This document shows positions 4,880 through 63,792 of a stretch of 64,000 nt of DNA, one piece after another; position 1 is the first letter of the stretch, and each line of letters begins with the position of its first letter. Origin of the DNA: Comamonadaceae bacterium (lineage in GTDB: Bacteria > Pseudomonadota > Gammaproteobacteria > Burkholderiales > Burkholderiaceae_C); contig JAJTEW010000002.1 in NCBI GenBank assembly GCA_021299875.1, positions 361,449-425,448 on the forward strand, given 5' to 3'. Both the position numbers and the translations under genes were made by a program. The notes below the pieces were generated by a model, which worked only from the letters and a program-made list of their open reading frames with translations, was not told the origin of the DNA and searched no databases.

Positions 4880-5857
4880 ATGGCCAACTATCAAAACCTG
4901 TTCACCACGGTGCAAGCCGTGGGTCCGGTGCACCAAGGGGTGCCGCTCGGACAAGGCAACAGTCCGCGCACGGGACAGCCCTTGATCAACTACTGGGTGG
5001 GCAAGCTGGGCAATGCGCAGCTGGGTCCCATTTACTTGGGCGGTTTGGGCTTGATCTCGCTGATCCTGGGCCTGATCGCCTTCACCCTGATTGGCATGAA
5101 CATGCTGGCTTCGGTCAATTACGACCCGATTCAGTTTGTGCGCCAGCTGTTCTGGTTGTCCCTCGAGCCGCCTGCTCCCAGTTACGGCTTGAGCATGCCG
5201 CCCCTGAACCAAGGTGGCTGGTTCCTGATTGTGGGCCTTTTTCTCACAGCATCGGTGCTGTTCTGGTGGGCCCGTACTTACCGCCGCGCGGTGGAGTTGG
5301 GCATGGGCACGCACATCGCTTGGGCCTTTGCTGCAGCCATTTGGTTGTTTCTGGTGCTGGGCTTGTTCCGCCCCATCTTGATGGGCTCTTGGGGTGAGGC
5401 TGTGCCTTACGGTATCTTCTCCCACCTCGATTGGACAGCGGCTTTCTCGCTGCGCTATGGCAACTTGTTCTACAACCCGTTCCATGCCTTGTCCATCGTG
5501 TTCTTGTATGGTTCGGCCCTGCTGTTCGCCATGCACGGTGCAACCATCTTGGCGGTGACCCGTTTCGGTGGTGAGCGCGAGATTGAGCAAATCACCGACC
5601 GCGGTACGGCCTCTGAGCGCGCCGCTTTGTTCTGGCGCTGGACCATGGGCTTTAACGCCACGATGGAATCGATCCACCGTTGGGCTTGGTGGTTTGCAGT
5701 CCTGTGTCCCATCACAGGCGGTATCGGCATCTTGCTGACCGGCACGGTGGTGGACAACTGGTACCTGTGGGCCATCAAGCACGGTGTGGCACCACCGTAC
5801 CCCGAAATTTTCCCAGGGATGGTTGACCCTGCGCTGAGCACTGGAGCCAAGCCATGA
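4880..5857 (+). CDS. pufM: Photosynthetic reaction centre M subunit
   Basis: The 325-aa reaction-centre M subunit is homologous to PufL and also has five membrane helices. Recognisable segments are the N-terminal [25 protein letters not shown], and [20 protein letters not shown] followed by MHGATILAV, which hold the chlorophyll and iron ligands. The C-terminal extension ([18 protein letters not shown]) matches M subunits that dock a tetraheme cytochrome. An AGGAG site lies upstream, and the stop overlaps the pufC start (ATGA). Confidence 0.97.
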
Positions 5858-6915
5858 ACATGACTATTTCCTTCTCTTCTGGCTGGACCGGCCGCATGGT
5901 CAAAGCTTTGGGACTGACACTGGCGGGTTTGGTGCTGACAGGCTGTGAGCGCCCGATTCCCGAAAGCGTACAAAGCGGCTACCGGGGCACCGGTATGGTG
6001 CAGGTCTACAACCCTCGCCTGCTCGAAGTCAAAACCGAGCTCAATCAACCGCCAGCGGTCATCCCGTCACCTGGGTCCGAAGGCCCCAAGGCTTCGCAGG
6101 CTTACAAAAACGTCAAGGTGCTGGGCAACTTGAGCGTGGGCGAGTTCAACCGACTGATGGTCTCGATGACCAACTGGGTGGCTCCAAAAGAGGGTTGCGC
6201 CTACTGCCACGCCTTGCCTAACTTTGAAGACGACAGCAAGTACACCAAGGTGGTGGCCCGTCGCATGGTCGAGATGACGCAGCACATCAACTCGGATTGG
6301 CAGCCGCACGTCGCGCAAACAGGGGTGACTTGCTACACCTGCCACCGCGGCGAACCTGTGCCCAATGCCATCTGGTTCAAAGCCAACCACCAGCCTTACG
6401 GATCCAACTTCATGGGTGACAAGGCGGGCCAAAACGAGCCCTCTCCAGTGGTCAATTTGTCTTCTTTGCCCAACGACCCGTTCACACCGTTTTTGCTGGG
6501 CAATGAAAACATCCGTCTGAATGGTCCGACAGCGCTGCCATCGGGCAATCGACAGTCGATCAAGCAGGGCGAGTGGACCTATGGCTTGATGACCCACATG
6601 TCGACCGCGTTGGGTGTCAATTGCACGTATTGCCACAACACGCAATCGTTCCAAAACTGGGAAATCAGCCCCCCACAACGGTCGACGGCTTGGCATGGGA
6701 TCCGCATGGCGCGCGATTTGAACCTGGCTTACATGGAACCTTTGACCGAGGTGTTCCCGGCGCACCGCAAGGGACCGTTGGGTGACGTGGCCAAGCTCAA
6801 CTGTGCCACTTGCCACCAAGGCGCTTACAAACCGCTCAATGGTGCACCCATGGCCAAAGACTTCCCTGAGCTACTCAAGCCCGCTTTGGCCGCTGCCAAA
6901 GTTGCGGCCAAGTAG
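5854..6915 (+). CDS. pufC: Reaction-centre tetraheme cytochrome c subunit
   Basis: PufC is the periplasmic cytochrome subunit that re-reduces the photo-oxidised special pair. The 353-aa product has an N-terminal membrane segment ending in a lipobox (LVLTGC), so it is probably a lipoprotein. Four heme-binding motifs are visible: CAYCH, CYTCH, CTYCH and CATCH, with Met ligands expected in the preceding helices. Its heme attachment requires the Ccm system encoded at 56.5-63.8 kb, and the HiPIP at 56.0 kb is a plausible electron donor. Start and pufM stop overlap as ATGA. Confidence 0.96.
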
Positions 6916-42105: not shown

Positions 42106-42134
42106 AATGTAAGTCTGGACATACAGTGTGTCAA
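42106..42134 (-). promoter_or_regulatory. Sigma-70-type promoter of the bchF operon
   Basis: On the minus strand, TTGACA (plus 42129-42134) is followed after exactly 17 bases by TACATT (plus 42106-42111), 34 bp before the bchF ATG. Both elements overlap the two PpsR-type boxes, so repressor binding would block RNA polymerase. Confidence 0.6.
42108..42125. promoter_or_regulatory. PpsR/CrtJ box 1 (bchF-ppaA intergenic)
   Basis: TGTAAGTCTGGACATACA fits the TGT-N12-ACA consensus exactly. It covers the -10 element of the bchF promoter and is three bases from box 2, the tandem spacing used for cooperative PpsR/CrtJ binding. Confidence 0.75.
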
Positions 42135-42146
42135 CATAAATTGACA
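42129..42146. promoter_or_regulatory. PpsR/CrtJ box 2 (bchF-ppaA intergenic)
   Basis: TGTCAACATAAATTGACA is a TGT-N12-ACA box and an inverted repeat (TGTCAA/TTGACA). It contains the -35 hexamer of the bchF promoter and, on the plus strand, a TTGACA that could serve ppaA. Confidence 0.8.
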
Positions 42147-43251: not shown

Positions 43252-44638
43252 ATGAAGCTTCCCTCTTTGGACCCGTCCACCTTTTCCCAATTGCTGGGTG
43301 TGGTGTCTGACGTCACCTTGGTCATGGACCCGCAAGGGGTGATCGAAGACGTTTCAACTGGGCGTGATACCTTGGCTTCTTTGGGTTGCCAGACTTGGAT
43401 CGGTCGTCGCTGGATCGAAACGGTCACCAGCGAGAGTCGTGTGAAAGTCCAAGAAATGCTGCTGTCGCAAGGCGTCCCAGATGTGATGCGCTGGCGTCAT
43501 GTCAACCACATGTCTCCCGTCGGCAATGAGGTGGCCCTGCAGTATGTGGTGCTGCCCTTGGCTGGCGGTAAGTTGTTGGCCATGGGGCGTGACTTGGAGA
43601 GCCTGGCCGAATTGCAGCGCCGACTGGTTGAGACCCAGCAATCGATGGAGCGCGACTATTTGCGTCTGCGCCACATCGAGGCACGTTACCGCGTGTTGTT
43701 CGACACCTCTACTGAAGCGGTTTTGATGGTGGACGCCAGCAGCCAGCGCGTGCTGGAGGCCAATGTGGGTGCGCAGGCTTTGCTCAAGGATGCGGGCAAA
43801 CGGTTGGTCGGTCGTGACGTGCGTGAATGTTTTGAGGGTGAGAGTCAGGGTGAAGTTCAGTCTTTGCTGCGCATGGCGCTGGCGACTGGCCGGATTGAGA
43901 TGTGCGCGGCCCGCGTGGCGGGATTGCCATCCCTGGACCGTGTCGGCCACCGTGTTCCGCCAGGAGGGTGGGGCGCAGTTTTTGGTGCGTTTGGTCACAC
44001 GTGAGAACACGGCCCTGGCCCACCAAGATCCAGGTTCTTCGGCTGTCTTGAGCGAGGCCATGGAGCGTTTTCCAGATGGCTGGTTGCTGACCGACACCAC
44101 GGGCGTGATCAAAAGTGTGAACGAAGAAGGCATGGCTTTGCTGGGCCTGACCGCGTCCTCTCAGGTGGTGGGTCAAAACCTGGAGCGCTGGTTGCTGAGG
44201 GGTGCGGTGGACTGGGGGGTGCTTAACACCAGTTTGCGTCAGCAGCTGCCCGTGCGCAATTTCGCCACCGAAGTGCGCACCCTGTCGGGCATGACCCTGC
44301 CGGTCGAGGTCTCTGCGGTGTGCCTGGCCCGCCCCGAGCCGATGTTTGCCTTTTTTGTACGCGACATGGACCGTCGCCTGCAAGGTGGCGCCTCGGTGAC
44401 GCAAAGCCAGGCCAACCCCTTTGCCGACTTGACCCAGCTGGTGGGGCGCCGCCCGATCAAGGACATCGTGGGCGAGACGGTGGACACCATCGAGCGCATG
44501 TGCATCGAAGCGGCTTTGGAGTTGACCCACAACAACCGAGCTTCGGCCGCGGAAATGCTGGGTTTGTCGCGCCAAAGTCTCTACGTCAAGTTGCGTCGCT
44601 TTGGCATGGTGGCCGAAGCCGAAACCGACAATCCCTGA
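43252..44638 (+). pseudogene. ppsR: PpsR/CrtJ repressor gene with a +1 frameshift
   Basis: Two overlapping ORFs together encode PpsR, the PAS/HTH repressor of photosynthesis genes. Frame 1 (43252-44004) carries the N-terminal PAS domain, the Q-linker with LQRRLVETQQSMERDYLRL, and PAS1. Frame 2 continues with FRQEGGAQFLVRLVT, the second PAS (FPDGWLLTDTTGVIKSVNEEG) and the Fis-type HTH (NNRASAAEMLGLSRQSLYVK). Removing one C from the CCC at 43931-43933 joins them (GLPS-WTVSATVF) into a normal 461-aa PpsR. As written, the product stops at 250 aa without a DNA-binding domain. It may be a sequencing error, as both halves look intact. Confidence 0.9.
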
Positions 44639-44642
44639 AGAC

Positions 44643-44660
44643 TGTCAATTAAAATTGACG
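44643..44660. promoter_or_regulatory. PpsR/CrtJ-like box 1 upstream of bchG
   Basis: TGTCAATTAAAATTGACG is a near-perfect inverted repeat (GTCAATT-AA-AATTGAC) that matches TGT-N12-ACA except for the last base. It starts four bases after the ppsR stop. Confidence 0.6.
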
Positions 44661-44665
44661 ATAAG

Positions 44666-44683
44666 TGTCAATCCTAGTTGACA
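44666..44683. promoter_or_regulatory. PpsR/CrtJ box 2 upstream of bchG
   Basis: TGTCAATCCTAGTTGACA fits TGT-N12-ACA exactly, five bases after box 1 and 28 bp before the bchG ATG. Its TTGACA may be a -35 element, with CACAAT at 44700-44705 as a weak -10 (16-bp spacer). Confidence 0.75.
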
Positions 44684-54089: not shown

Positions 54090-55115
54090 TCAGGCGGCCA
54101 GCACTTCTTGCAAGCTGCGCTGCACGCGCGCGCCCGAGTCGGTGTCGTCCAGCGGGTTGCGGCGCAGGCGGTGGCGAAGGGCCAGTGGGGCCATGCTTTG
54201 CAGGTGCTCGGCCTTCACTGCTTTGTGGCCTTGTAGCGCGGCATACGCGCGGGTGGCGCGCAGCAGCGTGAGTTCGGCGCGCAGGCCGTCGGTGCCCAGT
54301 TGCTGGCACAGGCGGGTGCACAGCATCAGCATGTCGTCGCTCACTTCGACTTGGTCCAGCAGCTCACGCGCTTTGAGGATGCGTTTTTGCAGCTTCTGGT
54401 TGTCCTTGTGCCACAGCGCTTTGAAGGCGGCAGGGTCTTTGTCGAAGGCGTCGCGGCGTTTGATGATGCTCACGCGCAGCGCCAGGTCTTGCGGCGTGCG
54501 CACCTGCACCGACAGGCCAAAACGGTCCAGCAATTGGGGGCGCAGCTCGCCCTCTTCGGGGTTGCCGCTGCCCACCAGCACAAAGCGGGCGGGGTGGCGC
54601 ACGCTCAGGCCTTCGCGTTCGACCAGGTTTTCGCCCGAGGCGGCCACGTCAATGAGCAGGTCCACCAGGTGGTCGTCGAGCAGGTTGACCTCGTCGATGT
54701 ACAAAAAGCCTCGGTGCGCCTGGGCCAGCAGGCCGGGGGCGAAGGATTTGATGCCTTGCGACAGGGCTTTTTCCAGATCCAGCGCGCCGACCACGCGGTC
54801 TTCGGTCGCGCCCAAAGGCAGATCGACCACGGCCACACTCTGGCGTTCGGTCACGACTTTGGCTTTGGGATCGCGTGCTTGGCAGACCGGGCAGGCGCCT
54901 GCGGGTTTGGCCGGGTCGCAGCGGTAAGGACAGCCTTTGACGACCGAAATGGGCGGCAGCGGGTCCGCAAGGGCCCGCACGGCAGTCGATTTGCCGGTAC
55001 CCCGGTCCCCCAACACCAGTACGCCACCGATGGCCGGGTCGACCGCCACCACCTGGATGGCGAGGGTCATTTCATCTTGACCAACAATGGCCGCAAAAGG
55101 GAAGGTCAATGCCAT
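54090..55115 (-). CDS. bchI: Magnesium chelatase ATPase subunit I
   Basis: BchI is the AAA+ ATPase driving Mg2+ insertion. The 341-aa protein has Walker A VLGDRGTGKSTAV, Walker B GFLYIDEVNLLDDHLVD, and the sensor region LVGSGNPEEGELRPQLLDRFG. It is the first gene of bchIDO, and a sigma-70-like promoter overlapping a PpsR box lies just upstream. Confidence 0.97.
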   Translation of the reverse strand: MALTFPFAAIVGQDEMTLAIQVVAVDPAIGGVLVLGDRGTGKSTAVRALADPLPPISVVKGCPYRCDPAKPAGACPVCQARDPKAKVVTERQSVAVVDLPLGATEDRVVGALDLEKALSQGIKSFAPGLLAQAHRGFLYIDEVNLLDDHLVDLLIDVAASGENLVEREGLSVRHPARFVLVGSGNPEEGELRPQLLDRFGLSVQVRTPQDLALRVSIIKRRDAFDKDPAAFKALWHKDNQKLQKRILKARELLDQVEVSDDMLMLCTRLCQQLGTDGLRAELTLLRATRAYAALQGHKAVKAEHLQSMAPLALRHRLRRNPLDDTDSGARVQRSLQEVLAA

Positions 55116-55144: not shown

Positions 55145-55173
55145 ATCATCCAAAAGACGCGGCAAAGTGTCAA
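55145..55173 (-). promoter_or_regulatory. Sigma-70-type promoter of bchI
   Basis: On the minus strand TTGACA (plus 55168-55173) is followed after 17 bases by GATGAT (plus 55145-55150), 30 bp before the bchI ATG. The -35 hexamer is the edge of the PpsR box at 55168-55185. Confidence 0.55.
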
Positions 55174-55185
55174 GTTAAATTTACA
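55168..55185. promoter_or_regulatory. PpsR/CrtJ box upstream of bchI
   Basis: TGTCAAGTTAAATTTACA fits TGT-N12-ACA and lies within the larger palindrome AAGTGT-N12-ACACTT. The same extended flanks occur at the ccmA box. Confidence 0.75.
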
Positions 55186-55877: not shown

Positions 55878-55895
55878 TGTCCATGGGGGTTGACA
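55878..55895. promoter_or_regulatory. PpsR/CrtJ-like box between the NnrU gene and HiPIP
   Basis: TGTCCATGGGGGTTGACA fits TGT-N12-ACA. It is 54 bp from the NnrU-family start and 122 bp before the HiPIP ATG. Two more half sites (TGTCAA at 55848, TTGACA at 55866) lie nearby. The left half is less typical than in the other boxes. Confidence 0.5.
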
Positions 55896-56017: not shown

Positions 56018-56344
56018 ATGTCCCGTTTTACCGAAATCTCTTCCACCCGCCGCGTGTTCATGATGCAAGTGGCCACGGCCGCCACAGCCACTTTGGCTGT
56101 GAGCCAAGCTTCGGCCCAAGCCATGGTCGACGAAAAAGACCCGCAAGCCGTGGGCTTGGCTTACAAAGCCGATGCGACCAAGGTCGACAAAGCCAAGAAC
56201 CCCAAGTACGCGGCGGGCAACAACTGCGCCAACTGCGCCTTGTTCCAAGCCAAGGCCGGTGCGGCTGCCGGTGGTTGCCCCTTGTTTGCAGGCAAGCAAG
56301 TGGCCGCCAAAGGCTGGTGCTCAGCCTGGGCCAAAAAGGCTTGA
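56018..56344 (+). CDS. High-potential iron-sulfur protein (HiPIP)
   Basis: This 108-aa precursor has a twin-arginine signal (STRRVFMMQVATAATATLAV, cleavage near ASAQA). The mature protein has the four-Cys pattern C-x2-C-x13-C-x13-C for one 4Fe-4S cluster (NCANCALF, GGCPLF, GWCSAW), which is the HiPIP arrangement. HiPIP is a soluble periplasmic electron carrier that reduces the tetraheme PufC in several purple bacteria. AGGAG precedes the ATG at 56018, preferred over the longer track ORF. The gene ends in its own terminator. Confidence 0.95.
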   Translation: MSRFTEISSTRRVFMMQVATAATATLAVSQASAQAMVDEKDPQAVGLAYKADATKVDKAKNPKYAAGNNCANCALFQAKAGAAAGGCPLFAGKQVAAKGWCSAWAKKA

Positions 56345-56386: not shown

Positions 56387-56411
56387 AAAACCGCCTCTGG
56401 GCGGTTTTTTT
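56387..56411 (+). terminator. Rho-independent terminator after HiPIP
   Basis: AAAACCGCC, loop TCTG, GGCGGTTTTTTT: a compact G+C stem followed by seven T residues, 43 bases after the HiPIP stop. It separates HiPIP from the ccm operon. Confidence 0.92.
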
Positions 56412-56484
56412 ACGCCCCAAGACGGCTTGGGGCTCAGTGTTTGCCCTGATTTGCCCACGTCAGCAAGGCTTTGAACAGACAAAG

Positions 56485-56502
56485 TGTCAATCTGTCGTTA
56501 CA
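56485..56502. promoter_or_regulatory. PpsR/CrtJ box upstream of ccmA
   Basis: TGTCAATCTGTCGTTACA fits TGT-N12-ACA, and the surrounding AAGTGT...ACACTT flanks are identical to those of the bchI box. It lies 36 bp before the ccmA ATG and 74 bp after the HiPIP terminator, so it would control only the ccm operon. Confidence 0.7.
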
Positions 56503-56537
56503 CTTGCTGCTGTTTCAACCGACCAGAAGGCCTTTTC

Positions 56538-57203
56538 ATGGCATCTTGGGTGCTCTCAGCGATGGACCTGGCCTGCCAAAAGGCCCAGCGGACTTTGTTC
56601 GAGGGCGTGAGCTTGGTTGTGCCCAGGGGCAGTTGGCTGCACATCGAAGGCGGCAATGGGTGTGGCAAAACCAGTTTGCTGCGCATCTTGTGTGGCTTGT
56701 CACCTGCGGCGCATGGTCAAGTGCGTTGGGCTTCACCGGACCTGGACTGCCTCGAAGGTCTGCCACCTGCTCTGTCTGCCCGTCCTGACCGTTCGGTGCT
56801 CCATTTCATCGGCCATGCTTTGGGCCTCAAGCCCGATTTGAGCGCGACCGAAAACCTGTGCCTTGACGCCCAGGTCAGTGGCTTGACGCTCAGCCGCGAA
56901 CAGGCGGTGCAAGCCCTGGCCGCGCAGGGCCTCAAAAGTCGGGCGAATTTGCCCGTTCGAGTGCTGTCGCAAGGCCAGCGGCAAGGGGTGGCCTTGGCGC
57001 GTTTGCGCACCAGCCCCGCGCGCTTGTGGGTGCTGGACGAACCTTTGGTGGGCTTGGACACCCAAGCCACCGCCATCGCCCGAAATTTGCTTCAATCGCA
57101 TGTGGACGCTGGCGGCGCCATTGTCATGACCAGCCACCACGATGTGGGCTTGCAAGGCCCAGGTGAGCGGTTTCAACTGGGCGCCGTGGCGCGGGCGCTA
57201 TGA
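56538..57203 (+). CDS. ccmA: Heme exporter ATPase CcmA
   Basis: CcmA is the ABC ATPase of the CcmABCD complex that releases heme-loaded CcmE during cytochrome c maturation. The 221-aa protein has Walker A IEGGNGCGKTSLLRILCG, signature VLSQGQRQGVALARL, Walker B LWVLDEPLVGLD and the H-loop TSHHDVG. AGAAGG lies seven bases before ATG 56538; the track start at 56484 overlaps the PpsR box. The stop overlaps ccmB as ATGA. Confidence 0.95.
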   Translation: MASWVLSAMDLACQKAQRTLFEGVSLVVPRGSWLHIEGGNGCGKTSLLRILCGLSPAAHGQVRWASPDLDCLEGLPPALSARPDRSVLHFIGHALGLKPDLSATENLCLDAQVSGLTLSREQAVQALAAQGLKSRANLPVRVLSQGQRQGVALARLRTSPARLWVLDEPLVGLDTQATAIARNLLQSHVDAGGAIVMTSHHDVGLQGPGERFQLGAVARAL

Positions 57204-57892
57204 GCGTACAGATTCACCCCAGCCCCTGGCAAGCCATGGCCGGTGTGCTGCGCCGTGACCTGCGCCTGGCCTTGCGGCGCAAGGCCGAGTGGCTCGGCGC
57301 GGTTTTTTTCTTTGTCGTGGTGGCCGCGCTGTTTCCATTGGCGATCGGCCCCGAGCCAGGCACTTTGCGCCTCATCGGTCCAGGGGTGCTGTGGGTGGCG
57401 GCCTTGCTGGCCAGCATGCTGAGCCTGGGCCGTTTGTTCGAGGCCGATCACCAAGACGGCAGCTTGGAGCAATTGGCTTTGTCGGCTGCGCCCCTGTCTT
57501 GGCTGGTCAGTGCCAAGTTGTTGGCGCATTGGCTGATCGCTGGCTTGCCCCTGGTCTTGCTGTCGCCGATCTTGGGTTTGCAATTTGGCCTGGGTCCAGA
57601 AGCTCTGGGCATATTGGCTTTGACGCTTTTGATTGGCACGCCGGTGTTGTCTTTGCTGGGCGCGATTGGTGCAGCACTCACTTTGGGGGTGCGCGGCGGT
57701 GGGGTGTTGCAGTCGCTTTTGCTTTTGCCACTGTATGTGCCGGTGCTGGTATTTGGCACCGGTGCGGTGGATGCGCAGTTGCGCGGCCTTGGGGCACAGG
57801 CCCATGTCTCGGTGTTGCTGGCGCTGTTGCTGGCAGCGGCTGCGCTCAGCCCCTGGGCCTGTGCGGCAGCGCTGCGCCTGGCGTTGGAATGA
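57200..57892 (+). CDS. ccmB: Heme exporter permease CcmB
   Basis: The 230-aa membrane protein has six helices. The family pattern includes RRDLRLALRRKAEWLGAVFFF, GVLWVAALLASMLSLGRLF, DGSLEQLALSAAPL and LPLYVPVLVFGTGAVD. It partners CcmA and CcmC in the CcmE-release complex. Start overlaps the ccmA stop. Confidence 0.95.
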   Translation: MSVQIHPSPWQAMAGVLRRDLRLALRRKAEWLGAVFFFVVVAALFPLAIGPEPGTLRLIGPGVLWVAALLASMLSLGRLFEADHQDGSLEQLALSAAPLSWLVSAKLLAHWLIAGLPLVLLSPILGLQFGLGPEALGILALTLLIGTPVLSLLGAIGAALTLGVRGGGVLQSLLLLPLYVPVLVFGTGAVDAQLRGLGAQAHVSVLLALLLAAAALSPWACAAALRLALE

Positions 57893-57905
57893 AAAGGACC
57901 GATCC

Positions 57906-58664
57906 TTGAAACTCTTTCACTACGCTGCCCCACAACACTTTTATCCACTGGCGGGTCGCCTGTGGCCATGGCTGGCGCTGATTGCCAGTGCCTTGGCGCT
58001 GGCAGGCTTGTGGGTGGGCTTCATGGTGGCACCGTCTGACGCGCAGCAGGGGCAGGCTTACCGGATCATTTACATCCATGTGCCGGTGTCGTGGATGGCC
58101 ATGATCATTTACTTGGCCATGGCCTTTTGGAGCGTTTTGGGGCTGGTGTTCAACACGCGTTTGTCGGGCTTGATGACGCGGGCGCTGGCACCCACCGGGG
58201 CAATGCTTGCGTTTTTGTCGCTGTGGACCGGGGCCTTGTGGGGCAAGCCGATGTGGGGCACCTATTGGGTGTGGGACGCGCGCCTGACCTCGATGCTGAT
58301 CTTGCTGTTTTTGTATTTGGGCTACATCGCGCTGACCTCGGCCATTGAGGACACGCGCCGCTCAGACCGGGCAGGTGCCTTGGTGGCGGTGGTGGGCGCG
58401 GTCAACGTGCCCATCATTTATTTTTCGGTGCAGTGGTGGAACACCTTGCATCAGGGCGCATCGGTCTCGTTCACCCAGTCGCCGCGCATGGCCAGCATCA
58501 TGCTGACGGGCATGTTGCTGATGAGCTTCGCGGTTTGGATTTATGCCGTGGCCATCGCCTTGTGGCGTGTGCGCAGTTTGATTCTGGAACGTGAGAGCCA
58601 TGCGGCTTGGGTCCAGCAGCTGCCCGAGGTACAAGCACACCGGGCTTGGCGAGGTGCCGCATGA
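57906..58664 (+). CDS. ccmC: Heme lyase-loading protein CcmC (TTG start)
   Basis: CcmC attaches heme to CcmE. The 252-aa protein has six helices and the tryptophan-rich WWD-type segment GKPMWGTYWVWDARLTS flanked by conserved His residues (YIHVPVSWMAM, WWNTLHQGAS). The track ORF begins far upstream inside ccmB out of frame. The first credible start in this frame is TTG 57906 (product MKLFHYAAPQHFYPL), which has AGGA seven bases upstream; the next in-frame ATG would remove the first helix. The stop overlaps ccmD as ATGA. Confidence 0.92.
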   Translation: MKLFHYAAPQHFYPLAGRLWPWLALIASALALAGLWVGFMVAPSDAQQGQAYRIIYIHVPVSWMAMIIYLAMAFWSVLGLVFNTRLSGLMTRALAPTGAMLAFLSLWTGALWGKPMWGTYWVWDARLTSMLILLFLYLGYIALTSAIEDTRRSDRAGALVAVVGAVNVPIIYFSVQWWNTLHQGASVSFTQSPRMASIMLTGMLLMSFAVWIYAVAIALWRVRSLILERESHAAWVQQLPEVQAHRAWRGAA

Positions 58665-58906
58665 TTTGGCAAAGCGCGTCCGAGTTTTGGGCCATGGGTG
58701 GCTATGGCGTGTACGTCTGGGGCAGCATGGGCGTGAGTGCGGCCTTGATGGTGCTGGAGGTGTGGCTTGCGCGGGTGGGCCGTCGGCAAGCGCTGGACGC
58801 GGTGTGCGAGGCCATGGACGCTGCGCAAGAGGAAACCCATGAACCCGACTCGGTCGCACCGACCGCGTCCGCCTACAAGTCTTTCAACTCGGGAGCCGCG
58901 TCATGA
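58661..58906 (+). CDS. ccmD: Cytochrome c maturation protein CcmD
   Basis: CcmD is a small bitopic protein of the CcmABCD complex. The 81-aa product has the hallmark [30 protein letters not shown], one helix, then a longer than usual cytoplasmic tail of about 35 residues. ATG 58661 overlaps the ccmC stop, and its own stop overlaps ccmE as ATGA. The track lists a longer reading that begins in ccmC. Confidence 0.9.
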
Positions 58907-59349
58907 AAAACCGCCACAAGCGATTGTTCGGCATCGGACTGGGCTTGCTGCTCGTGTGCGGTGCGCTGTTTTTTGTGCTCAACGCGTTCCAGAGCAATTT
59001 GGTTTTCTTCTTCACACCCACGCAAGTCGCGGCAGGCGAAGCGCCCAAAGACGGTCACTTTCGGGTAGGCGGTTTGGTCAAAGAAGGCAGCATCCAGCGC
59101 GACGGCATGGCGGTGGCCTTTGTGGTGACCGATACGCATCAAGAGGTGCCAGTGTCTTATGTTGGCTTCTTGCCCGATCTGTTCAAAGAGGGTAAGGGCG
59201 TGGTGGCGCAGGGTCGTTTGAACGCCAGTCGACAGTTTGTCGCCAGTGAAGTGCTGGCCAAGCACGATGAAAACTACATGCCACCCGAAGCCCAGCATGC
59301 GTTGGACGAGGCGGCCAAGGCCCGCATCGGTGCGGCGGTGGCGCAATGA
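58903..59349 (+). CDS. ccmE: Periplasmic heme chaperone CcmE
   Basis: The 148-aa membrane-anchored OB-fold protein covalently carries heme on the conserved His in [13 protein letters not shown], with the neighbouring Tyr ligand. The N-terminal helix ([20 protein letters not shown]) and [14 protein letters not shown] are typical. It overlaps ccmD by 4 bp and precedes ccmF by 27 bp. Confidence 0.95.
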
Positions 59350-59376: not shown

Positions 59377-61389
59377 ATGTGGCCTGAAGCCGGCCACATG
59401 GCCTTGATCATGGCGGCTTGGGTCGCCTTGGCGCAAGCGGTGTTGCCGCTGTGGGGCAGTTTGTCGGTGAGCCGCGCAGGCTGGCAAGCGTTGGCCAGGC
59501 CTTTGGCGCAGTTGCAACTGGTCTTGATTGTGTTGTCGTTTGGTGCTTTGTGGCATGCGTTTTATGTGCACGATTTCAGTGTCGTGTATGTGGCCAACAA
59601 CTCCAATACTTTGCTGCCTACGCCATACCGCCTCTCGGCAATTTGGGCAGGTCACGAAGGCTCCTTGGTGTTGTGGGTCTTGATGCTGGCATTCTGGTCG
59701 GTGGCCGTGGCCATGTTTTCCAAGCGTTTGCCGCAAGCCATGGTGGCGCAAGTGCTGGGCGTCATGGGCGCGGTGTCGGTGGGCTTTTTGGTCTTCATCT
59801 TGGCCTTGTCCAATCCGTTTGCCCGGCAGTTCCCGGCACCCGCCGAGGGGCGTGATTTGACACCTTTGCTGCAAGACCCGGGTTTGGTCATTCATCCGCC
59901 GATGCTCTACATGGGCTATGTGGGTTTGTCGGTGGCGTTTGCTTTTGCCATGGCGGCGCTGCTTTCGGGGCGGCTCGATGCGGCGTGGGCGCGTTGGGCA
60001 AGGCCTTGGACGGTGGCGGCCTGGGGCTTTTTAACGCTGGGCATTGCGCTGGGGTCTTGGTGGGCTTACTACGAATTGGGTTGGGGCGGCTGGTGGTTTT
60101 GGGACCCGGTTGAAAACGCCTCGCTCATGCCTTGGTTGGTGGCTACAGCGCTCATCCATTCGCTCATGGTCACGGACAAGCGTGGGCAGTTCAAGGCCTG
60201 GACGGTGCTCTTGGCCATTGGCGCTTTCTCACTCAGCTTGTTGGGCACCTTCCTTGTGCGCTCGGGCGTGTTGACTTCGGTGCACGCCTTTGCCACCGAC
60301 CCGGGGCGGGGGGTGTTCATCTTGCTGTTTTTGGTGGTGGTGGTGGGTGTGTCGCTGGCTTTGTTTGCCTGGCGCGCCCCCCAGTGGGCCAATGCCTCGC
60401 AGCCTGTCGTGGGTTCGCGCGAATCGTTTTTGCTGCTCAACAGCGTGCTCTTGGTGGTGGCCATGGCGGCGGTGTTGTTGGGCACTTTGTACCCATTGAT
60501 CATCGACGCGCTCAACCTGGGCAAGTTGTCGGTTGGCCCACCGTATTTCGACCGCGTGTTTGTGCCGCTGATGGTGCCGCTCTTGCTGGCCATGGTGCCG
60601 GGCACGGTGGTGCCTTGGCACGTGGCGCGCTGGGCGGCGGTGCGCTCTGTCTTGGTACCAGGGGCCTTGGCGCTTTTGTTGGCCAGTGCTTGGGCCACTT
60701 GGGGCGCCGCGCCTCAGGCTGCAGAGGCCGTGACCAACGCCGGCGGTTGGCTCACGGTGATGGGCGGCACGCTGGGCGGCTGGATCGTGCTGTCGGGCGC
60801 TTGGCAAATCGCGCAGCGCCTGCGTGTGCCTGGATCGCCTGGCCTGGCTTGGTGGGGCATGCAGGTCGCGCACATGGGCGTGGCGGTACTGGTGCTGGGC
60901 ATCACCGGCGTCAAGTCTTTTGAGGTGGAGCGTGACGTGCGTTTGGGTCTGGGTGATTCGGTCACGGTGGCCGGTGTGCGTTACCAACTGATCGGTGTGG
61001 GCAACCATTTGGGACCGAATTATTTGGCCTTGCGCGCGCAAGTGCATTTGTTTGAAGGCGAGCCGGGCAGCGAACGGCAGGTGGGCACTTTGCTGCCTGA
61101 AAAACGGCGCTACGTTTCCAGTGCCATGCCCATGACCGAAGCGGGGATCGACCGCAACCTCTGGCGTGACCGTTATGTCTCTTTGGGCGAGCCCTTGGCG
61201 GGCGAGCCACCCCAGTGGAGCTTTCGGGTCTACCACAAGCCTTTTGTGTCGTGGATTTGGCTGGGTGCGGTGTTCATGGTGTTGGGCGGGGGCTTGGCCG
61301 CTTTTGACAGGCGCTACCGGCAGGCGCCTGTGAAGTCCAGTGCGAGCGCAGCGAAAGTGGCCCCTGGCAAGCTGGGGGCACTGGGATGA
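59377..61389 (+). CDS. ccmF: Cytochrome c heme lyase subunit CcmF
   Basis: CcmF is the heme lyase core that joins heme to apocytochromes. The 670-aa protein has about 14 helices, with HEGSLVLWVLMLAFW, the DPGLVIHPPMLYMGYVGLSV segment and the WWD domain ELGWGGWWFWDPVENASLMP. The stop overlaps ccmG as ATGA. It is large and normal in length. Confidence 0.96.
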   Translation: MWPEAGHMALIMAAWVALAQAVLPLWGSLSVSRAGWQALARPLAQLQLVLIVLSFGALWHAFYVHDFSVVYVANNSNTLLPTPYRLSAIWAGHEGSLVLWVLMLAFWSVAVAMFSKRLPQAMVAQVLGVMGAVSVGFLVFILALSNPFARQFPAPAEGRDLTPLLQDPGLVIHPPMLYMGYVGLSVAFAFAMAALLSGRLDAAWARWARPWTVAAWGFLTLGIALGSWWAYYELGWGGWWFWDPVENASLMPWLVATALIHSLMVTDKRGQFKAWTVLLAIGAFSLSLLGTFLVRSGVLTSVHAFATDPGRGVFILLFLVVVVGVSLALFAWRAPQWANASQPVVGSRESFLLLNSVLLVVAMAAVLLGTLYPLIIDALNLGKLSVGPPYFDRVFVPLMVPLLLAMVPGTVVPWHVARWAAVRSVLVPGALALLLASAWATWGAAPQAAEAVTNAGGWLTVMGGTLGGWIVLSGAWQIAQRLRVPGSPGLAWWGMQVAHMGVAVLVLGITGVKSFEVERDVRLGLGDSVTVAGVRYQLIGVGNHLGPNYLALRAQVHLFEGEPGSERQVGTLLPEKRRYVSSAMPMTEAGIDRNLWRDRYVSLGEPLAGEPPQWSFRVYHKPFVSWIWLGAVFMVLGGGLAAFDRRYRQAPVKSSASAAKVAPGKLGALG

Positions 61390-62000
61390 GTGTTCCAACC
61401 AGCGTTGGCCAAACCCGGCGCATGCCGCGCTGGGTGTTTGTGCCGCTGGCGCTGTTTTTGGGCATGGCGGTGTTTTTGGCGGTGGGGCTGACGCGTAACC
61501 CACAAGAAATTCCTTCGCCGCTCATCGGTCAACCGGCGCCTGTTTTCCAGTTGCCTTTGGTGGGCGGGGCTGGGGTGTTTGGCGCTGAGCAATTCAAGGG
61601 GCAGCTGACGCTCGTCAACCTGTGGGCCACTTGGTGCGCAGGTTGCAAAGAAGAACATCCCCTTTTGATGGCTTTGGCCCGTCAACCCGGTTTGCAAATG
61701 GTGGGCATCAATTACAAAGAGCTACAGGCTTCAGAGTTGTCGGGGCAAGACCCGTTGAGCCCTGAAGCGGTACAAAAAGCCACGGCGCGCAGCCAAGCTT
61801 GGTTGCAAAAACAAGGTCAAGCTTTTGGCGTGAACCTGCTCGATTTGGATGGTCGGGTGGGCATGGACTTTGGTGTGTATGGCTTGCCTGAGACGTATTT
61901 GGTGGACCGCCAGGGTGTGGTGCGTTTTAAGCATGCCGGGGCTTTAACGCCGGAAGTTTTGCAGCAAAAATTGCTGCCTCTGATGCGGAGTTTGCAGTGA
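61386..62000 (+). CDS. ccmG: Thiol:disulfide oxidoreductase CcmG/DsbE
   Basis: The 204-aa membrane-anchored thioredoxin-fold protein reduces apocytochrome CXXCH cysteines. The anchor is residues 15-36 (VFVPLALFLGMAVFLAVGL), the active site is LWATWCAGCKEEHP (Cys-Ala-Gly-Cys), and GVYGLPETYLVDRQGVV holds the cis-Pro region. The stop overlaps the ccmH start. Confidence 0.94.
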   Translation: MSVPTSVGQTRRMPRWVFVPLALFLGMAVFLAVGLTRNPQEIPSPLIGQPAPVFQLPLVGGAGVFGAEQFKGQLTLVNLWATWCAGCKEEHPLLMALARQPGLQMVGINYKELQASELSGQDPLSPEAVQKATARSQAWLQKQGQAFGVNLLDLDGRVGMDFGVYGLPETYLVDRQGVVRFKHAGALTPEVLQQKLLPLMRSLQ

Positions 62001-62557
62001 AGCGCTTGGTGTTCTCCATTCGGCGAAATGCCATGCATGGTGTTTTGGCCAGTGCATTGTGGTGGGCTGTTTCGGTGGGGGCCCAAGCGCCGAGTGCGCC
62101 GGTGGCGTCAATGGCCCCGACTGCGCCGGTTGTTCAAGCGGCCCTGCCGGGTGTGGGCGCCACCGTTTTGGCGCAGGGTGATGCGCCCATGACCGCGCCG
62201 ATCCAAGCGCGCTGGGACCACATCGCGGCCGAGCTGCGCTGCTTGGTGTGCCAAAACGAATCCTTGGCCTCCTCGAATGCAGAGTTGGCAGTCGACTTGC
62301 GCCGTGAGGTGCGCAGCTTGATCGAGCAAGGCCAAAGCGATGCCGATATCCGCAGCTTTTTGGTCAAACGCTATGGCGACTTTGTGCTCTACAAGCCCGA
62401 AGTCAAGCCCGTGACCTGGCTGCTGTGGTTTGGCCCCTTTGCCTTGTTGCTGATGGCCTTGGCGGTGGCGCTGCGCCTGATGCGCCGCACGCCTGCTGAG
62501 CCAGCACCTTTGACCGACAGCGAGCGCGAACGCGTTCGCCGAATGCTGGAGTCCTGA
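61997..62557 (+). CDS. ccmH: Cytochrome c maturation protein CcmH
   Basis: The 186-aa protein has a signal peptide, the redox motif LRCLVCQNESLASSNAELA, the segment VRSLIEQGQSDADIRSFLVKRYGDFVLYKP, and a C-terminal helix. It handles the apocytochrome thiols with CcmG. The GTG at 61997 overlaps the ccmG stop (GTGA); ATG 62033 is an alternative. The stop shares one base with the ccmI start (TGATG). Confidence 0.93.
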   Translation: MKRLVFSIRRNAMHGVLASALWWAVSVGAQAPSAPVASMAPTAPVVQAALPGVGATVLAQGDAPMTAPIQARWDHIAAELRCLVCQNESLASSNAELAVDLRREVRSLIEQGQSDADIRSFLVKRYGDFVLYKPEVKPVTWLLWFGPFALLLMALAVALRLMRRTPAEPAPLTDSERERVRRMLES

Positions 62558-63792
62558 TGTCCTTTTTGCCGCCTTGGATGGGTTTGTTGTGTGTGCTCCT
62601 GTGCCTGGGTGGCTTGGCCGCCTGGGTGGTGCAGCGGGGCTTGAAGGAAAAAGTGCCTGCTGTGAACGGCGATGTGCAATCCCAAGTGAACCGTCAAATT
62701 CACCAGCAACATTTGGCCGATTTGGACCGTGCCTTGAGCGAGGGGCGCTTGAATGCGGCGCAACACCAATCGGCGCGCGATGAGTTGTTGCGTCACGTGC
62801 TGGACGATGACGCACAGGCCCATATCAGCCGCTCGAACGCGAGCCTGTCCGTGGCGTGGCGCTGGATCGTGGTGGGCTTGGTCTTGCTCAGCGGCCTGAG
62901 TTATGTGCAACGGGGTGCGCCGCAGGCGTGGTGGACTGTGCCTTTGAGTCAACGGGTCAAGATCAGCGCCACCACACCTGAACAATTGGCCGAGCAAACC
63001 CGACAGTGGCTGCAGACCACACAAAAACAACCCAAGGATGCCGAGGCTTGGTTGACTTTGGCGCGTTTGCATGCCGCCCAAAACGCACATGCTTTGGCCG
63101 AGCAAGCCTTGGCTCAGGTACTCAGCTTGGCGCCTGAGCCCGATCTCTGGATCGAGCGCGCGCAAATGAAAGCCTTGAGTGCGGGCGGTGTGTATGCCGG
63201 AGAGCCTTGGCAATGGATTCAAGACGTGTTGCGCACGCAGCCCCAGCACCTGAACGCTTTGGTGTTGGCGGGCAGTGCGGCCTTGTCTGAAAAAAAATAC
63301 GATGCGGCGCAAAAATTTTGGCAACAAGCCTTGAGCCAGGTGCCCGCAAACAGCGAGGCTGCTGACGGTCTGCAGCAAGCCGTTGCGAAGGCGGGTCAGT
63401 TACAGCAAGCGCAAGGGGCCGAGGTCAAAGCAGCGGGCAGTCCGGACGATCAGCGGCTCTTGATTCAGGGCGAAGTTCGTGTTTCTTCTGATGTGCAAAG
63501 CCAAATCGGTGCAGGGGCGACTTTGTTTGTCTATGCCTTGGCCGAGGATGGCTCGCGTCGCCCCGTGGCCATCTGGCGCGGCACGCCTGCTGCATGGCCT
63601 GTGCGCTTTGGCTTGAGCGACAGCATGGGCATGGGCGCACCGCCCTTGTTGTCATCGTTGGCACAGGTGCGCCTGGTGGCCCGCATCTCCAAAACGGGAT
63701 CGGCGCAAAAGCAAGAGGGCGATCTTCAGGTCGAACTGCCCGGTGTGAAGACGGGCGTGCAAGGCGTGGTGCTTCAGATCTCTGGTCGTTGA
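62557..63792 (+). CDS. ccmI: Cytochrome c maturation TPR protein CcmI
   Basis: CcmI holds apocytochrome c for the heme lyase. The 411-aa protein has two N-terminal helices bracketing a cytoplasmic loop (LADLDRALSEGRLN is the family's hallmark), then a periplasmic TPR domain (EAWLTLARLHAAQNAHALAEQALAQ and following repeats) and a C-terminal beta domain. It is the last gene of the operon. Confidence 0.93.
   Translation: MSFLPPWMGLLCVLLCLGGLAAWVVQRGLKEKVPAVNGDVQSQVNRQIHQQHLADLDRALSEGRLNAAQHQSARDELLRHVLDDDAQAHISRSNASLSVAWRWIVVGLVLLSGLSYVQRGAPQAWWTVPLSQRVKISATTPEQLAEQTRQWLQTTQKQPKDAEAWLTLARLHAAQNAHALAEQALAQVLSLAPEPDLWIERAQMKALSAGGVYAGEPWQWIQDVLRTQPQHLNALVLAGSAALSEKKYDAAQKFWQQALSQVPANSEAADGLQQAVAKAGQLQQAQGAEVKAAGSPDDQRLLIQGEVRVSSDVQSQIGAGATLFVYALAEDGSRRPVAIWRGTPAAWPVRFGLSDSMGMGAPPLLSSLAQVRLVARISKTGSAQKQEGDLQVELPGVKTGVQGVVLQISGR

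Follow-up and report, generated by a model that had tools for sequence, protein, structure and literature searches.

A conserved PpsR-type box before the ccmA-I operon suggests that Limnohabitans makes its photosynthetic cytochromes in step with its pigments

In Limnohabitans, light-harvesting freshwater bacteria, a conserved box in front of the cytochrome c maturation (ccm) operon suggests that the cells make their photosynthetic cytochromes in step with their pigments. PpsR (CrtJ) is a photosynthesis regulator with a Fis-like helix-turn-helix, known for its pigment, antenna and some respiratory gene targets; the classical one, bchC of R. capsulatus, has two boxes, and the usual half site is TTGACA. 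Judging from sequence comparison, it is very probable that the box on the ccmA promoter is a PpsR operator, most likely repressing ccmA-I in step with the pigment genes. The operon would then be a new target of a known type of regulator, with good comparative support, and from the same comparisons we infer that PpsR binds there, the direction in which it regulates and a role of this ccm system dedicated to photosynthesis.

The window (i.e., the whole stretch of 64,000 nucleotides analysed) encodes a complete System I cytochrome c maturation operon, ccmABCDEFGHI, which reaches position 63792 according to profile searches. On the forward strand, it comprises ccmA (56538..57203; TIGR01189 and NF010061 over the cut-off), ccmB (57200..57892), ccmC (57879..58664), an ORF containing ccmD (58607..58906; PF04995), ccmE (58903..59349; PF03100), ccmF (59377..61389), the thioredoxin-like ccmG (61386..62000), ccmH (61997..62557; PF03918) and the CycH-like ccmI (62557..63792; PF23892 and PF23914), with ccmB, ccmC, ccmF and ccmG also assigned by profile search. 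Upstream of it lie the gene of a high-potential iron-sulphur protein (HiPIP; 56018..56344, forward strand; PF01355) and, on the reverse strand, bchI (54090..55115; TIGR02030 over the cut-off). The window further contains both reaction-centre subunit genes and pufC (5854..6915, forward strand), whose product, the tetraheme reaction-centre cytochrome, is a substrate of cytochrome c maturation and the sole CXXCH protein encoded there. In a comparison with named genomes, which points to the genus Limnohabitans, the BchI of the window was 98% identical to that of Limnohabitans sp. DM1, and among 80 BchI-anchored loci a window-like ccm operon adjoined bchI only in the two closest, for which reason the bchI-ccm block is specific to a Limnohabitans group; the remaining loci were used as background. 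As a side observation, contig CALQKH020000019.1 looks mislabelled: it is recorded as an Akkermansia muciniphila MAG, and its photosynthesis genes are of the Limnohabitans type (98% BchI).

The box itself is the 18-mer TGTCAATCTGTCGTTACA at 56485-56502 of the forward strand, which starts 53 bp and ends 35 bp before the ATG of ccmA (56538) and is the only one in the ccm promoter, as in the relatives. With its flanks it reads ACAAAGTGTCAATCTGTCGTTACACTTGCT, and the box before bchI (TGTCAAGTTAAATTTACA, 55168..55185, forward strand, the gene being on the reverse one) reads GCAAAGTGTCAAGTTAAATTTACACTTGAT with its own. The initial annotation had described a TGT-N12-ACA match sharing the AAGTGT/ACACTT flanks with the bchI box, and its sequence, coordinates and flanks are exact. 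It had also placed the box between a HiPIP terminator and ccmA, where a terminator-like hairpin (AACCGCC-TCTG-GGCGGTT-TTTTT, 56389..56411, forward strand) can indeed be read from the sequence; a G+C-rich hairpin with a T run occupies the same place in most relatives. Conservation over 32 genomes extends the putative operator to CAAAGTGTCAA-N7-TTACACTT(TG), a long inverted repeat at 56480..56507 (forward strand). Upstream of it, a further element, CCCTGATTT (56444..56452, forward strand), is strongly conserved in the genomes with the same type of ccm operon, possibly as the site of a second regulator or as a part of the promoter.

Simple motif counts carry little of the argument. The bare TGT-N12-ACA was found 12 times in the window, against a mean of 14 in shuffled sequences, as expected by chance, so counting it was dropped as evidence and the case for the ccm box is therefore a comparative one. 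Genome-wide, GTGT-N12-ACAC (46 places, 40 for the reversed control) was barely above its control, and the more specific TGTMA-N8-TKACA was found in 10 places vs 5. According to their surroundings, seven of these 10 places precede crtE, bchC, bchF, bchG, bchI, ccmA and hemA; the other three are inside a helicase-like gene, before an unassigned gene and before an sdhC-like gene. The last of them (TGTCACGAACGCGTTACA; L048, G000:C4:489933) might be a further target. The extended form AAGTGTCAA-N7-TTACACT (23 bp), by contrast, is far above chance and occurs only twice in the window genome, at bchI and at ccmA. Its 52 matches in 90 genomes of the same genus all have the spacer sequence of either the bchI or the ccmA box; its reversed control has none in those 90 genomes, and the form itself is missing from the 398 further genomes searched in the order.

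An independent measure is provided by a PpsR matrix built from 13 R. sphaeroides ChIP-seq sites that precede photosynthesis-related operons or prrA (PMC4344238). On it, the ccm box scores 15.6 bits and ranks 6 among about 64000 start positions of the window, where six sites (the ccm box included) score at least as high and 0.35 would be expected by chance. The top seven matches are the tandem boxes between bchF and a ppaA/aerR-like gene (42108..42146, forward strand), the bchI box (second in the window), the tandem boxes before bchG (44643-44660 and 44666-44683, within 44643..44683, forward strand), a box before the HiPIP gene and the ccm box. The ccm box remains below the 22-25 bits of the pigment boxes, because its right half, TTACA, falls short of the usual TTGACA.

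Comparative evidence comes from the orthologous promoters. The ccmA upstream regions of 60 genomes of the genus were collected, in which CcmA is of two types, 71-92% (type A) and 41-52% (type B) identical to that of the window. The initial annotation had made conservation upstream of ccmA in relatives a test of its proposal, and the outcome is strongly in its favour: the box is present at -53/-54 in all 32 readable type-A promoters (31 fetched and that of the window, drawn from 90 genomes of the same genus; the type-A genome G091 was left out because its contig ends too early). The type-B promoters of the genus have no comparable box (the contig of G094 is too short to judge), and the mean matrix scores are 16.2 for type A vs 5.0 for type B. 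Over the ccmA/B tree of the 32 genomes, the 17 core bases of the box have undergone a single change, against about 95 expected from local neutral sites (6-8 changes per site in neighbouring intergenic columns, 5.2 at third codon positions). The spacer bases vary (3.4 changes per site), as expected of a palindromic operator, and some of the inner bases are also conserved.

The place of the box admits the reading that it serves the neighbouring HiPIP gene or bchI, ccm being merely adjacent, since in the window the operon directly follows the HiPIP gene and is 1.3 kb from the bchI box. This is scarcely credible: the terminator-like hairpin separates the HiPIP gene from the ccm box, and the HiPIP gene and bchI each have a PpsR-type box of their own. 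Furthermore, in G080 the type-A ccm operon lies away from the photosynthesis cluster, next to an upstream gene that reads as phaB, and its box is intact, while bchI, HiPIP and NnrU-like genes are absent from the 17.5 kb fetched around ccm; ppsR is on another contig of this three-contig assembly. As G080 keeps the box with ccm alone, the box is assigned to ccm, and its assignment to the HiPIP gene or to bchI was rejected as largely refuted.

It could also be argued that the bases are conserved just as the core promoter of ccmA, their likeness to a PpsR box being fortuitous. A distance of 35-53 bp from the start codon suits promoter elements, and TACACT (56499-56504) could serve as the -10. Nevertheless, a simple scan found no sigma-70 promoter of good quality before ccmA, a promoter would have no need of the long inverted repeat that is built from the conserved bases (CAAAGTGT...ACACTTTG in relatives), and the same bases make up the bchI box, whose orientation relative to its gene is the opposite one. 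This explanation is therefore very improbable. Less far-fetched, and still unlikely, is that the box is a true operator of another regulator with a TGT-N12-ACA-like site (e.g., of the TyrR/Fis type), acting on bchI as well. The AAAGTGT/ACACTT flanks are common to ccmA and bchI and missing from the crtE, bchC and bchF boxes, so that a second factor could prefer this subtype of box, and the conserved inner bases go in the same direction. Against it, the bchI box is among the best PpsR-matrix matches of the window, bchI belongs to a PpsR-bound operon in R. sphaeroides (PMC4344238), ppsR is encoded in every genome with the ccm box, and a search of the window genome for a further PpsR homologue found none.

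PpsR remains the preferred owner of the site for the group as a whole, and the window genome raises a question of its own. Near 43925-43946, its ppsR (43252..44638, forward strand) has lost 2 nt relative to G014, which breaks the gene into two ORFs, one for the N-terminal and one for the C-terminal part. It is the only frameshifted copy, since all 63 further genomes of the genus that encode ppsR keep the frame intact. The operator may thus be without its regulator in the strain of the window, the rest of the group having it. That ppsR is here a pseudogene and the operator, functional now or formerly in the genus, an orphan in this strain is a real possibility, if somewhat the less probable one, and it is compatible with a PpsR operator in the group. 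On the other side, both halves of ppsR differ from G014 chiefly at third codon positions, which points to a recent break or to a sequencing or assembly error, and the operators are undamaged.

Other genes outside pigment synthesis have boxes of this kind as well. About 140 bp before the HiPIP gene there is a PpsR-type box, TGTCCATGGGGGTTGACA (55878..55895, forward strand), which ranks fifth on the matrix, keeps its TGT-N12-ACA in 27 of 30 relatives and is nearly identical to the PpsR-bound R. sphaeroides site RSP_3000, TGTCCATATGGGTTGACATT (PMC4344238). Far from the cluster, hemA of the window genome has the box TGTCAAGCAAAGTTGACA at about -40 (G000:C13:319274-319291, L055). A close form of it is present in 22 of the 24 other type-A genomes examined with a single hemA. 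It is missing in the seven non-phototrophs examined and in six phototrophs with a second hemA; G007, G022 and G026 have both a second hemA and the hemA box. Universality of the hemA box in the clade was rejected, as G011 and G101 have a single hemA without it. With hemA, a putative box of this kind is seen for the second time before a heme gene. The initial annotation, right about the ccm box, had missed these further boxes that score on the matrix, that of the HiPIP gene and, at another place in the genome, that of hemA.

Most type-A genomes also have a component of the other cytochrome c maturation system: ResB/CcsB (System II) is encoded in 30 of 33 of them, that of the window included, the three exceptions being drafts. 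With nearly all box-bearing genomes encoding it, the box-type ccm would seem to be a second maturation system, one linked to photosynthesis. Among the genomes of the genus at least 90% complete, ccm is present in 44 of 45 with ppsR vs 5 of 12 without it, a comparison uncorrected for relatedness and of little weight alone; the remaining 7 of those 12 have ResB and no ccm. In this genus, according to these counts, ccm accompanies phototrophy, and several non-phototrophs manage with System II alone. ResB is missing from many of the phototrophs that have a type-B ccm, and these show by inspection a TTGACTTGAATCAA-like, FNR-type sequence before ccmA; an FNR/ANR-type site (TTGAT-N4-ATCAA-like) upstream of ccmA was not seen in the type-A promoters, also by inspection. 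Two side observations concern the surroundings of other ccm operons: a light-dependent protochlorophyllide reductase gene (TIGR01289) is close to ccm in G103 (L241), and in G065 (L239) a protochlorophyllide-reductase-like gene and hemE- and hemC-like genes are divergent from a type-B ccm operon.

The association of ccm with photosynthesis genes also takes other forms. A parallel ARRANGEMENTS is found in G007, G022, G026 and G028 (L244-L247), where bchI, with a PpsR-type box upstream, faces away from a block whose last genes are hemA-ccmA. In G007 the first gene of that block is dxs, and this dxs-hemA-ccm order represents a different route joining ccm to the photosynthesis cluster. In a family sample of 299 genomes (that of the window included), CcmA was found at the threshold used in 20 others, four of which have ccm at the photosynthesis cluster: G602, with bchI opposite a hemA-ccm block; G677, with crtE opposite ccmA; and G676 and G723, with an ORF opposite ccmA that reads as crtI (named from the protein reading only). 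Each of these four divergent intergenic regions contains strong PpsR-matrix matches, and none of the other 16 CcmA-bearing family genomes has one within 400 bp of ccmA. The boxes of the four may be the pigment gene's own, though ccm shares the promoter region. On balance, and by a narrow preference, System I would be an accessory photosynthesis module in phototrophic Burkholderiaceae, repeatedly brought to the cluster and under PpsR (with its own box in Limnohabitans; in other lineages through a divergent arrangement with crtI or crtE, or a place after dxs-hemA and opposite bchI), while System II, where kept, would be the housekeeping one, and hemA would belong to the same regulon.

That ccmA-I may belong to the PpsR regulon, as first proposed in the initial annotation, is supported by the conservation of the box, the independent matrix, the co-presence of ppsR (frameshifted in the window genome itself), the G080 locus and the presence of pufC in the window. 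In the proposed mechanism, PpsR would bind the inverted repeat CAAAGTGTCAA-N7-TTACACTTTG before ccmA and, by analogy with R. capsulatus bchC, which CrtJ represses (PMC5362033), would most likely repress ccmA-I by covering its promoter under the redox or light conditions that repress bch and crt, to release it together with the pigment genes. Occlusion is a guess, given the outcome of the promoter scan, and PpsR/CrtJ can also activate, as at the cco operon in R. capsulatus and in Rubrivivax (PMC5362033). In this way the cell would gain, in step with bacteriochlorophyll and carotenoid, additional capacity to attach heme to PufC and perhaps to further cytochromes c of photosynthesis, and the housekeeping cytochromes c could still mature via the separate System II (CcsBA) of the same genome. 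If the ccm operon, hemA and the HiPIP gene are added to its targets, PpsR would coordinate the supply of cofactors and the assembly of cytochromes besides pigments, which offers a reason for the two maturation systems of many aerobic phototrophs of the genus.

The initial annotation knew of no description of ccm as a PpsR target, and a full-text search of the open-access literature likewise found no paper that connects cytochrome c maturation with PpsR or CrtJ; no ccm target is shown in the main text of either PpsR/CrtJ ChIP-seq paper, that on R. sphaeroides (PMC4344238) or that on R. capsulatus (PMC5362033). Compared with the PpsR/CrtJ boxes of the Rhodobacter bch, crt and puc promoters (PMC4344238, PMC5362033), the ccm box is alike in its TGT-N12-ACA, its TGTCAA/TTGACA-like half sites and its place in the promoter region, and differs in that its target is a maturation operon, it is single, its right half is TTACA and its palindrome, AAAGTGT/ACACTTT, is longer. 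CrtJ also reaches beyond pigments into electron-transport genes at ccoNOQP and the ubiquinol oxidase genes of R. capsulatus (PMC5362033), but these are structural genes of oxidases, whereas the Limnohabitans case would concern the machinery of heme attachment. Heme and tetrapyrrole supply is likewise touched by PpsR at hemE and prrA in R. sphaeroides (PMC4344238), the genes with a box being here hemA and ccm instead. The ccm genes of R. sphaeroides are regulated as well, in connection with iron or anaerobic metabolism, but through other regulators and sites and without PpsR, namely RSP_3341 for ccmE and CrpK for ccmD (PMC4344238, PMC4263372). Finally, System I is present here in its complete form, ccmA-I, but as an extra beside ResB/CcsB and tied to the photosynthesis cluster.
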